Source of the DNA: Microcystis wesenbergii FACHB-1317
GTDB lineage: Bacteria > Cyanobacteriota > Cyanobacteriia > Cyanobacteriales > Microcystaceae
Length of the DNA: 42,536 nucleotides
Assembly (NCBI RefSeq): GCF_014696875.1
Contig: NZ_JACJQV010000175.1
Location: 1-42,536, forward strand
Reading direction: 5' to 3'
Shown here: one piece after another, positions 24,166 to 39,055 of the stretch
Numbering within the stretch: position 1 is the stretch's first letter
Layout: every line of letters starts with the position of its first letter
The notes under the pieces: generated by a model
What the model was told of the DNA's origin: nothing
Database searches by the model: none
The model's input: only the letters and a program-made list of their open reading frames with translations
Made by a program: the position numbers and the translations under genes

Positions 24166-24876
24166 TTAAGCTTTTGCCTGAAGATAGCGGCGATTTACCT
24201 CCTCCCAGTTAACCACATTCCACCACTGTTTTAAATACTCAGCCCGTTGATTACGATATTTTAAGTAATAGGCGTGTTCCCAGACATCATTGCCCATAAT
24301 TGGCTGTAATCCCATCATTAGGGGGCTATCTTGGTTAGCAGTGCTGATAATTTCCAGTTGTCCTGACTTATTTAAAACCAACCATGTCCAACCACTACCA
24401 AAAAGTTTAGTACCTGCTTGGTTGAAAGCGTTTTTAAATTCCTCGAAACTGCCAAATTTAGCGATTATTGCCGCCCCTATTTCTCCTTTTGCTTCGCCAC
24501 CACCATCGGGGGACATAATCTGCCAAAACATCCTATGATTAAGATCGCCGCCGCCATTATTGCGGATAGTGGTGCGAATATCGGCGGGTAAAGAGTCAAG
24601 ATTTTTAATTAATTCTACTACTGTTTTTTTCTGCAATTCTGGATATTTTGCCACTGCCGTGTTGAGATTATTAACGTAGGCTGCATGGTGTTTATCGTGA
24701 TGAAATTGCATCGTTTCCTTATCAATATAAGGTTCTAGGGCATCATAGCTATAGGGTAGGGCAATAAGACTATAGGGACCGGTAGCGGCAAAAGCGGCAG
24801 AGTTAAAACCGGCAAGAGTGGCTGTGCCAAGGGTAGCACCTAAAAGATAAAGAAATTGACGGCGATCAAGAGACAT
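24166..24876 (-). CDS. sodA: Superoxide dismutase (Mn/Fe type), Tat-exported
   Basis: Fe/Mn-family superoxide dismutase. The ATG at 24876 gives 236 residues starting [17 protein letters not shown], a twin-arginine (Tat) signal with RRQFL. A TTG-type upstream extension to 24936 is not conserved-looking. The mature part begins near residue 33 ([20 protein letters not shown]). The metal ligands are present: His in FHHDKHH, the [11 protein letters not shown] segment, and Asp and His in DVWEHAYYL. The GGGDLNH and MGNDVWEH motifs suggest Mn rather than Fe. Export implies protection in the periplasm or thylakoid lumen. It precedes thrB by two bases. Confidence 0.93.
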
Positions 24877-25105: not shown

Positions 25106-25746
25106 TTATCGTTTTTGTTTGAATTGAGAACCGATGCCCAAAAGTCCTAAACCTAATAATCCTAAAATTGCCGAAGGTTCGGGAACTGGTGTGACATTGA
25201 TGTTATCAAACTGATGAAACGGGAATGCCTGAATCCATTGAACAGATACTAAATTAGTGAAGCTAGAATTAAAGGTAAAAGTTTCTAGGGTACTAAGAAT
25301 TGCATCGGTAGTAAAAGCTTGGCTAACGGTACTAGAATCGGCTTTTGTTCCTGTAAAATTGACAGTCACACTATCATTACCATTGAGGCTAGTTAGTTGA
25401 ATAGAATTTAAGTCAAATAAGCCTCCGCCATTTTGGGTTAATCTGGTGATTCCACCAACCGTACCATTTAATAAGGCGGTAGAACCAGGGTAACGAAATT
25501 CCTGAGTGCCAAAAAAGAAAAAAGGAAAAGGAGTAGACAGGTTATCTAGGGTAAAACCGGCTTCGGTATAGGTAAAACCGACATTATTAGGGACTGAGTT
25601 ATTTTGTTCTAAGCTTTGAAAATCGATAATTACAGCTTGGGCGGCTTGGAAAGGGGTTAGGATGGCTAGAGTTGCCCCCGCTACCAATAAGTAATGCTTA
25701 CCCCCCCCCCCACATTTTTGATTACTTTTGTTAATGTTTTGTCCAT
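25106..25746 (-). CDS. PEP-CTERM protein, frameshifted at a poly-G tract
   Basis: The C-terminal part (frame open from 25687) encodes a beta-rich protein ending in VPEPSAILGLLGLGLLGIG and a basic tail, a PEP-CTERM sorting signal. The only start in that frame is a TTG inside the signal peptide. A better ATG is at 25746 with AGAAAGAG upstream and TATAAT further up. From it, translation runs MDKTLTKVIKNV and then into 11 consecutive Gs (25701-25711). With 11 Gs the frame is lost and stops at TAG after a few codons. With 9 or 12 Gs it would continue into GKHYLLVAGATLAILTPFQAAQA, a complete signal peptide. The gene is therefore off as read. Causes could be slipped-strand phase variation or a base-count error in the homopolymer. 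Confidence 0.8.
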
Positions 25747-25930
25747 GAAAAACTCTTTCTTGGTAAGTTTCCTTCGATTATATAATTGTATTTTTCAAAA
25801 GACTGGTATTGCCTGCTACCAATAAGTAATGCTTACCCCCCCCGCACTTTTGATGATTTTTGTTAATGTTTTGCCCATGGAAACCTCTTCTATGGTATGG
25901 TTTCTTCGATTGTATAATTGTCTTTGCCTC
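25679..25930. repeat. Tandem duplication of the PEP-CTERM gene 5' region
   Basis: Two direct copies of about 120-135 bases: 25679-25812 (next to the gene) and 25814-25930. Both hold the start ATG, the first codons, the poly-G tract (11 versus 8 Gs) and the region upstream of the ATG including the TATAAT-like sequence. The upstream copy starts MGKTLTKIIKSAG and is a decoy that runs into stop codons. It fills most of the 316-base spacer to the next gene. Confidence 0.75.
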
Positions 25931-26062: not shown

Positions 26063-26737
26063 TTACCATAAACGATAAAAACTTTTCAACAAATGCGGGG
26101 GGATTTTTAGATAATAACCAATAATTATTAATTGATTAACTAAGGTAGTTTTGCCAACTCCTAATTTTTGCCAACGTCTTGCCGAGGTAATCACCGCAGT
26201 AGAAACTATGGCTATCTTACCCGTTTTTTTCAATCTTTGTATTAATTCAAAATCTTCCATAATTGGCAACTCAGGAAAACCGCCCAAATCTGCCAATATT
26301 GAGGCTTTTAAAAATATTCCTTGATCTCCGTAGGGAAGAGAAAACCAGCGAGAACGCCAATTAACTAATTTTTCCACTAAACGCAGGGATTTTTCTTCTC
26401 CATCAATTTTTAATTCAAAAGCCCCCGCTACTATTCCAGATTGGGATAAAGTATTGATAATTTGTTCTTGAAATTCCTGGGGAAGTAAAGTATCTCCGTG
26501 CAGAAATAACAAAATATCTCCTTTGGCTATTTTGGCTCCTAAATTCATCTGAAAGGCACGACCTTTACTAGAAGAAATAATTACCTTCGCTCCCAATTGT
26601 TCGGCTATTTCTCTAGTTTTATCGGTACTTCCCCCATCGACAACAATAATTTCTACTCCTTCACCTATCTGTTTTAACGTTGCTGCAATTCTTAACTCCT
26701 CATTGAGAGTCGGAATGATAATACTAAGATAATTCAT
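26063..26737 (-). CDS. Family 2 glycosyltransferase (TIGR04283 type)
   Basis: A 224-residue GT-A fold glycosyltransferase. N-terminal LSIIIPTLNEELRIAATLKQ is followed by EIIVVDGGSTDKT, and the metal-binding acidic motif is in LLFLHGDTLLP. It then has GYGDQGIFL-like SLPYGDQGIF and a C-terminal GKTTLVNQLIIIGYYL hydrophobic segment. The pattern matches the short family named in TIGR04283, annotated as arsenosugar biosynthesis in databases, but substrate specificity cannot be confirmed here. Its ATG overlaps the end of the short ORF at 26724-26927 by 14 bases, so that ORF may be coupled to it. Confidence 0.85.
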   Translation of the reverse strand: MNYLSIIIPTLNEELRIAATLKQIGEGVEIIVVDGGSTDKTREIAEQLGAKVIISSSKGRAFQMNLGAKIAKGDILLFLHGDTLLPQEFQEQIINTLSQSGIVAGAFELKIDGEEKSLRLVEKLVNWRSRWFSLPYGDQGIFLKASILADLGGFPELPIMEDFELIQRLKKTGKIAIVSTAVITSARRWQKLGVGKTTLVNQLIIIGYYLKIPPHLLKSFYRLW

Positions 26738-34377: not shown

Positions 34378-34589
34378 ACTGCTATCTAGGGTTTGCGGCA
34401 AAAAGTTTTTCCTGGGGGCAGGTTGTGGCCCCCCGACATCGGGGGGGTCGGGGGGGCAGGGGGGGGTGTAGGGTTTTACCCATTTTCAGGACGTTCGGCG
34501 AGCTCAGTCGAGTGGACGGTGAGGCTTCGACGGTGAGATCAGCCGAACCGCTTGTCGAACCGCCGGCGTCAATTAGCTAATTTTCAGGG

Positions 34590-37537: not shown

Positions 37538-39055
37538 ATGAGCTACAATTATCGGTTAAACGTGGTTAATAGCGAGCAGATGCGTCGCATCGAAGGGGCG
37601 ATTTTTGCCTCCGGTATGCCTGTGGCCGCTTTGATGGAAAAGGCAGCCCTGTTAACGGCACAACAGCTTAAAAAGTCCTATTCTTTGGCTAATTTCCCCA
37701 AAATTGGCGTTATCGTCGGTCCTGGTCACAATGGCGGCGATGCTCTCGTGATTGCTAGAGAATTACATCTTGCTGGTTATCAAGTATCTCTTTTTTGTCC
37801 GATCGCCAAACTCAAGGATTTAACAGCACAACAGGCTAATTATGTCAAGCATTTAGGCTTAATTTTTCAGAAAACTTTAGAATCTTTGGAGGATTGTCAG
37901 TTAATTATCGATGGTCTTTTCGGTTTTGGTTTAGAAAGGACTTTATCGGCAGATATTGCCGAATTAGTCGATAAAATTAATAGTTGGCAAAAACCGGTAA
38001 TTAGTATCGATATTGCTTCGGGAATTCACACCGACACCGGAGAGGTTTTAGGCACGGCAATTAAAGCCACTCATACCTTTTGTTTGGGACTCTGGAAGCG
38101 CGCTTTTTTCCAGGATTTGGCCCTACCCTATCTGGGTAAAGTGGAGTTAATTGATATCGGAATTAGTCCCCTTGACCTAGAAACAATTTTACAAGATTCA
38201 CCGCCAATTATGAGGGTTAATCCCGATCTAATTCGCCCTTATTTACCCTTACCCCGTCCTCTCCTTACCCATAAATATCAGCAGGGACATTTATTAATTA
38301 TCTGTGGTTCTCGTCGTTATGCGGGGGGGGCAATTCTCGCCGGATTAGGAGCGCGAGGTAGTGGTGTGGGAATGCTTTCGATTGCCGTTCCTGCTGCCCT
38401 TAAATCTTTATTAATTAGTCATTTACCAGAAGCATTAATTATCGATTGTCCCGAAACTGCCACGGGAGCTATTGCCGAACTTCCCCTAGAATTAAATAAT
38501 TATCATGTCCTCGCCTGTGGTCCTGGATTAACCACAGAAAATCCTGCTATTATCGAACAGGTTTTAGACAGTGATAAGCCGATTATACTCGATGCCGATG
38601 CTTTAAATATTTTGGCTCAATTGGGTATAAAAAAATTATCATCTCGCCAGAATAAGACAATTTTAACGCCTCATTGGGGAGAATTTAAACGCTTATTTCC
38701 TAACTTATCAGATTCTCAAGATAGGATTAATATCACTCAAAAAGCATCTCAACAAAGTGGTGCAATTGTCTTATTAAAAGGAGCCAGAACTATAATCGCC
38801 TCCCCGGGCGGTAAAATCTATATAATCCCCGAAAGTAGCTCCGCTCTAGCGCGAGGTGGTAGTGGCGATGTCTTAACGGGATTAATCGGCGGATTCTTAA
38901 CCCAAATGCCGGATAATCCCCCAGAAACAACCGCATTAGCGGCTTATTTACACGCTCAAGCTGGCATTTTAGCAGCTAAAGAAAGGACAGAATTAGGAGT
39001 AGATGGAGTAACTTTAGCTAATTATTTATTTGCCGCCCTTAAAGATTTAAATTAA
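37538..39055 (+). CDS. nnr: Bifunctional NAD(P)H-hydrate repair enzyme Nnr
   Basis: Fusion of an NAD(P)HX epimerase (YjeF_N) and an ADP- or ATP-dependent dehydratase, about 505 residues from the ATG at 37538. It repairs hydrated NAD(P)H. The N-terminal domain has VVNSEQMRRIEGA and GPGHNGGDALVIARELH (about residues 60-90). The C-terminal carbohydrate-kinase-like domain has RGGSGDVLTGLIGGFL, the nucleotide-binding motif, and DADALNILAQL with LLKGARTIIASP. The TTG-type start 69 bases upstream would add a non-conserved tail from repeat sequence and is rejected. Confidence 0.93.
   Translation: MSYNYRLNVVNSEQMRRIEGAIFASGMPVAALMEKAALLTAQQLKKSYSLANFPKIGVIVGPGHNGGDALVIARELHLAGYQVSLFCPIAKLKDLTAQQANYVKHLGLIFQKTLESLEDCQLIIDGLFGFGLERTLSADIAELVDKINSWQKPVISIDIASGIHTDTGEVLGTAIKATHTFCLGLWKRAFFQDLALPYLGKVELIDIGISPLDLETILQDSPPIMRVNPDLIRPYLPLPRPLLTHKYQQGHLLIICGSRRYAGGAILAGLGARGSGVGMLSIAVPAALKSLLISHLPEALIIDCPETATGAIAELPLELNNYHVLACGPGLTTENPAIIEQVLDSDKPIILDADALNILAQLGIKKLSSRQNKTILTPHWGEFKRLFPNLSDSQDRINITQKASQQSGAIVLLKGARTIIASPGGKIYIIPESSSALARGGSGDVLTGLIGGFLTQMPDNPPETTALAAYLHAQAGILAAKERTELGVDGVTLANYLFAALKDLN

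Follow-up and report, generated by a model that had tools for sequence, protein, structure and literature searches.

We found that a PEP-CTERM gene of Microcystis wesenbergii FACHB-1317 is thrown out of frame by a run of eleven Gs inside its signal peptide. Very likely the run is a translational slipped-strand switch, and the gene one member of a multi-gene PEP-CTERM set. The window (the whole stretch of 42,536 nucleotides that was analysed) is contig C85 of the strain's own genome (G000), a 5.04 Mb draft in 248 contigs. The parts of the gene are as follows.

25106..25746, minus strand: PEP-CTERM gene, its start out of frame in the assembly (reading frames; PF07589 match)
25712..25746, minus strand: basic leader MDKTLTKVIKN, which opens the signal peptide (translation of the ATG frame)
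25701..25711, minus strand: 11-G run, proposed slippage switch (exact count; length varies at the locus elsewhere)
25634..25699, minus strand: second part of the signal peptide, KHYLLVAGATLAILTPFQAAQA, read in the frame that follows the run (putative signal peptide with a presumed AQA cleavage)
25187..25633, minus strand: predicted exported body (blastn against G001, G005 and G011)
25130..25189, minus strand: PEP-CTERM sorting motif (PF07589, E 3.0e-6)

As the preliminary description had read it, the frame of the ATG at 25746 enters exactly 11 Gs (25701–25711) and is then lost: it runs for 11 codons up to the G run, ends after 21 codons and reads MDKTLTKVIKNVGGGVSITYW before the stop. The frame after the run stays open for 193 aa, from the TTG at 25687 up to its stop at 25106. 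Translation at different run lengths agreed with the earlier statement that 9 or 12 Gs restore one open frame, and the two halves of the signal peptide, which lie in different frames here, form a single frame in the corresponding genes of two other Microcystis genomes (G009 and G011). The PEP-CTERM tail claimed earlier was found above the family cut-off (PF07589, 27.8 bits versus 20.7). Among NCBIfam models the window ORF passes TIGR02595 (18.2 versus a cut-off of 16), and four other PEP-CTERM models score below their cut-offs. The body carries no named domain besides this tail, and the predicted structure of the protein has no usable fold (mean pLDDT 33). The own genome holds 37 PEP-CTERM motifs, 35 of them above the family cut-off, and one exosortase match (PF09721, C21:1042-1806, E 8.3e-58).

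We propose that the run gains or loses a G when the DNA is copied. Only at in-phase lengths would the basic leader and the hydrophobic half be read together as one signal peptide, and the joined signal peptide would allow export, exosortase processing and anchoring through the PEP-CTERM tail. At other run lengths translation would end a few codons past the run.

The gene lies between two neighbours and is preceded by a partial copy of itself.

24166..24870, minus strand: Fe/Mn superoxide dismutase, downstream neighbour (domain match)
25812..25925, minus strand: shortened tandem duplicate of the gene's 5' end (ATG at 25878; identity to the main start 84%)
25836..25843, minus strand: 8-G run within the upstream copy (lengths across six genomes: 8, 8, 8, 9, 9 and 10)
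26063..26737, minus strand: family 2 glycosyltransferase, upstream neighbour (domain match)

Six other genomes (G001, G005, G008, G009, G010 and G011) have a recognisable counterpart of this site beside the superoxide dismutase and glycosyltransferase genes; not all of the stretches compared include both neighbours. The main run has 11 Gs in the own genome, 10 in G001 and G010, 9 in G009 and G011, and 8 in G005 and G008. The gene is in frame in G009 and G011, and its body is broken in one of the seven genomes (G008). The locus has these marks of a slipped-strand (SSR) phase-variable gene: a homopolymer in the 5' coding part, a run length that differs between related genomes with both in-frame and out-of-frame states, and a gene that is otherwise intact when OFF. 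In G001, G005 and G011 no blastn match to the window body was found, and both flanks match at 87–98.5% identity. Judging from these alignments, the body appears to have been exchanged between signal peptide and tail in the three genomes, with the start cassette and the tail kept. Each genome is represented by one assembly, and it is from such between-genome differences that we infer reversible switching inside a clone.

The gene start stands as first described; the tandem 5' copy just upstream of it had been overlooked. The frame after the G run of this copy ends at the TAA at 25778-25780. Of the seven genomes compared at the locus, six carry the copy, which was not found in G009; its run counts 8 Gs in G000, G001 and G011, 9 in G008 and G010, and 10 in G005. 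Candidate roles for it are a short leader peptide and a recombination partner. The window has further 8-base G/C runs at 2051-2058, 34459-34466 and 38323-38330.

The contingency-locus reading of the preliminary description is supported, but its single-gene scope proved too narrow: a whole set of genes shares a related start, and in a second type the run lies upstream. A census of PF07589 matches gave 290 PEP-CTERM motifs in 12 Microcystis genomes, and we examined 137 of about 150 among the matches listed; the 13 left out are five members of a single long family, one motif where a contig begins and seven others. A run of at least seven Gs lies inside the signal peptide for 25 of the 137 motifs (6 in frame, 19 not). 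Run length across the genus set is about 7–13 Gs. Several leader types occur (TLTK.IKN-G-KHYLL, LAKL-G-KHSLLK, NQQILAKI-G-SLALLL, LAKLIKNSI-G-ILISLA and LAKLINF-G-K), and the bodies behind them differ; related leaders (LAKLI.., LTK.IK..) are found on different bodies. The own genome has five signal-peptide-run genes, with lengths of 11, 11, 12, 9 and 9, all out of frame.

Because this census starts from open bodies, a second search was made regardless of body, with a pattern of leader, at least six Gs and TA. It returned 31 instances in 8 of the 12 genomes (6 upstream half-copies and 25 gene starts), and the reversed-pattern control gave no match in the same 12 genomes. The pattern is absent from G002, G003, G006 and G007, three of which have runs of another form: the NQQILAKI type in G002 and G006, and a run with no TA after it in G007. 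With an E-value of 0.01 or lower, 23 of these 25 genes match PF07589. An intact PEP-CTERM body of 197–255 codons follows 23 of the 25, and the remaining two bodies are broken (G008:C197 and G010:161184). Only 4 of the 23 intact genes are in frame and 19 are out of frame, versus 7.7 expected in frame at random (p 0.08). With all five own-genome genes OFF as well, a mild OFF bias or low selection for ON is possible. Among PEP-CTERM genes that lack a run at their start, the signal peptide is in frame in 82 of 99 by a crude hydrophobicity test (Fisher p 5e-9 versus 4 of 23, the two groups being different samplings).

If the run provoked transcriptional slippage or ribosomal frameshifting, a steady in-frame fraction could arise whatever the DNA length, which would account for the tolerated out-of-frame lengths and the intact bodies. 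This process, however, needs no variation of DNA length between near-identical genes, and such variation is found: in two genomes the genes L244 and L246 have bodies that differ by 4 bases in 206 codons and runs of 8 and 9 Gs. It also leaves the G runs upstream of genes unexplained, and we consider it improbable, if the strongest of the alternatives.

Slightly less probable still is an error of assembly or sequencing, with the true run in frame and the gene simply expressed. The own genome is a draft of 248 contigs, poly-G is error-prone, and another genome (G006) shows a 20-G run at a contig end. Yet the 19 out-of-frame genes come from 8 genomes, including assemblies of 1–2 contigs, and the same design recurs in different PEP-CTERM genes, so that an error could still alter the count in the window but fails as an account of the recurrence in 8 of 12 Microcystis genomes and three other genera. 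Nor would it account for codon usage. Two run-less relatives (L112 and L252) have a similar leader and the same VGGG written in mixed codons (GGA GGT GGG and GGA GGG GGC for the three glycines; longest G run 4 and 5), versus pure G codons in the run set. Since the same glycines occur there without a homopolymer, the glycines belong to the protein and the homopolymer to the switch.

The recurrence outside the genus comes from a sample of the phylum, in which the leader followed by at least eight Gs is present in 8 of 386 genomes (reversed control: 2 genomes). Five of them are Microcystis (out of eight in the sample), others represent two further genera of the family, and one is a genome from another family in the order. 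The five matches outside the genus (three genera) all have PEP-CTERM tails; two are in frame and three are not. Of these tails only that of L340 exceeds the Pfam cut-off; four score 13–14 bits with Pfam and lie above an NCBIfam PEP-CTERM cut-off (TIGR02595 or TIGR04155). A Synechococcales MAG carries a gene that reads like one of these five (L324 and L332); it is probably the same genome as that match and not independent of it. Two of the candidates for run switching in other genera, L351 and L339, have adhesin-like bodies with a C-type lectin domain and FG-GAP repeats.

Plain pseudogenes, that is, relics with frameshifts in a run, are highly unlikely. The preliminary description had named two outcomes that would speak against switching: a true count of 12 Gs, or a uniform count in many strains together with other disabling mutations. 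Both were checked on assemblies, where the count of this very assembly could be off. The second was not seen: lengths vary at the locus (8–11 Gs in seven genomes), and 23 of the 25 bodies in the genus are undamaged. High dN/dS and the two broken bodies, one of them at the window locus (G008), would fit decay, but the locus gene is in frame in G009 and G011. Moreover, no stop was found in the five bodies of family B over about 254 substitutions (closest links, hand-summed). Random changes create a stop in the window body in 6.6% of cases; hence unconstrained bodies should have gathered about 17. Gaps of whole codons in family B were set aside as an argument, because a codon alignment produces such gaps by construction. 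Body dN/dS, where computable, is 0.48–1.05, and the 4 changes in one body pair are all nonsynonymous; judged on these alignments, such values fit diversifying but also relaxed selection. Domains of a sugar-binding or adhesin-like kind occur in some members of the set: DUF642 in five, CBM96 in one and, weakly, CBM_4_9 in two.

Runs of Gs also precede PEP-CTERM genes. In the own genome 10 PEP-CTERM motifs belong to genes with a G7-11 run at their likely start or ahead of it (C26 L069, C3 L064, C11 L310, C103 L126, C161 L309, C75 L303, C119 L306, C27 L305, C30 L314 and C126 L264). The upstream runs fall into two conserved types, in putative promoter or leader. One type is TTGACA-AAATC-Gn. Here TA(A/G)(A/G)AT stands right after the run in 11 of 17 TTGACA instances, with a spacer of 13–16, and is absent in 6 of 17 (hexamers by eye). 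In two groups of look-alike promoters, paired by visual comparison of the first encoded residues, the spacers are 16, 14, 16 and 13 (L069, L122, L270, L117) and 15, 14, 15 and 16 (L132, L161, L166, L167). The other type has a conserved block ending in GATACAGTTGT before the run and lies mostly ahead of genes with a tail like TLGAASTLKRKLKPSKSTEKETTKVG. From their sequences, this sister set is probably switched by upstream G runs, some of them in a putative promoter spacer. A promoter reading was also tried for GATACA-type runs (TTTTGATACAGTTGT-G7..11-ARTGTGTAT) and rejected; no hexamer spacing fits sigma-70 well, so these are termed upstream runs only.

The upstream runs, where frame is irrelevant, could suggest that a run forms a structure in DNA or RNA, or tunes translation initiation as a spacer, with no frame switch, but the run of the coding set sits in the signal peptide and other lengths cut the protein, which makes this reading as remote as decay.

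When the window is shuffled with its dinucleotides kept, 4 of 100 shuffles contain any 11-G run (mean 0.08 matches), so the run by itself is only mildly unusual. Its placement is unusual. Most upstream-run loci were chosen for their PEP-CTERM motifs, and by themselves they cannot test for an association. A test free of this selection is offered by the 45 distinct runs of at least nine Gs listed for the own genome. Ten of the 45 have a PEP-CTERM motif within 1 kb downstream on their own strand, versus 0.165 expected (Poisson p about 4e-15), in a test that was devised after the pattern had been seen, was hand-counted from two lists and includes the window run among the 10.

Some G runs were noted on other grounds. 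A secreted-looking gene at C83:41930 of the own genome (L081), which is not among the PF07589 matches, has an out-of-frame 9-G run near its start, and the switch may thus reach beyond PEP-CTERM proteins. At C148:3905 (L135) a 9-G run lies at the apparent TTG start of an ORF that is cobalamin-synthase-like (named by eye). Palindrome-like elements of the form CCCCCCCGACATCGGGGGGG surround several runs of at least nine Gs (L073, L087, L129, L130 and L147), and the 20-G run at the end of G006 C23 (L182) is probably an assembly artefact at such a palindrome-like element.

Translational phase variation by poly-G/C is well known from pathogens, as in the contingency loci of Campylobacter, Neisseria and Haemophilus, in which a 5' homopolymer sets expression through the frame. 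As there, the Microcystis homopolymer has variable length and lies near the 5' end of surface-related genes. In contrast to those loci, the run is inside the signal peptide of PEP-CTERM proteins, with a related leader and different bodies, and switching is deduced. Neisseria also varies promoters through poly-G/C spacers. Similarly, the Microcystis G run lies between a -35-like TTGACA and a -10-like TA(A/G)(A/G)AT in the 11 instances above; unlike the Neisseria spacers, these runs precede PEP-CTERM genes, a -10-like hexamer is missing right after the run in 6 of the 17, and the promoters are putative.

As in known PEP-CTERM/exosortase sorting (PF07589, PF09721), the tail, the signal peptide parts and the exosortase are all in the genome. 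A candidate run-switched gene sets Microcystis apart from known systems of this kind: a literature search, judged mainly by titles, found neither run-switched PEP-CTERM genes nor comparable cyanobacterial phase variation. Akkermansia muciniphila has 21 PEP-CTERM proteins and homopolymers longer than 8 bp in 17 genes, for which phase variation was suggested; in the part of that paper available to us two capsule-synthesis genes are named with repeats and no link to PEP-CTERM is made (PMC3048395). For restriction systems, one paper states only that such regulation may occur in cyanobacteria (PMC8262939). Strain FD4 reportedly has 62 PEP-CTERM clusters (PMC7498433). Another study reports PEP-CTERM genes as upregulated in colonies of Microcystis and says that in other bacteria they anchor exopolysaccharide (PMC12642866).

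The candidate PEP-CTERM switch genes presumably act in the cell coat, at the sheath or colony surface. We see about an even chance that in Microcystis and its relatives they amount to multi-gene phase variation of an exosortase-anchored coat, in which a start cassette with exchangeable bodies and the upstream poly-G sister set would give each cell a mixed sheath. If true, each cell of a clonal colony would display a random, changing mix of sheath proteins. Several of the exchangeable bodies would be sugar-binding, and the system may have been shaped by phages, grazers or colony cohesion. To our knowledge, such a coat system would be the first known in a photosynthetic bacterium.

A switch of this kind, if true, would also mean that annotation can take live genes for pseudogenes. 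Microcystis blooms depend on colonies and sheath. Stochastic switching of PEP-CTERM genes would account for heterogeneity in clonal cultures and could affect contact with phages and grazers.
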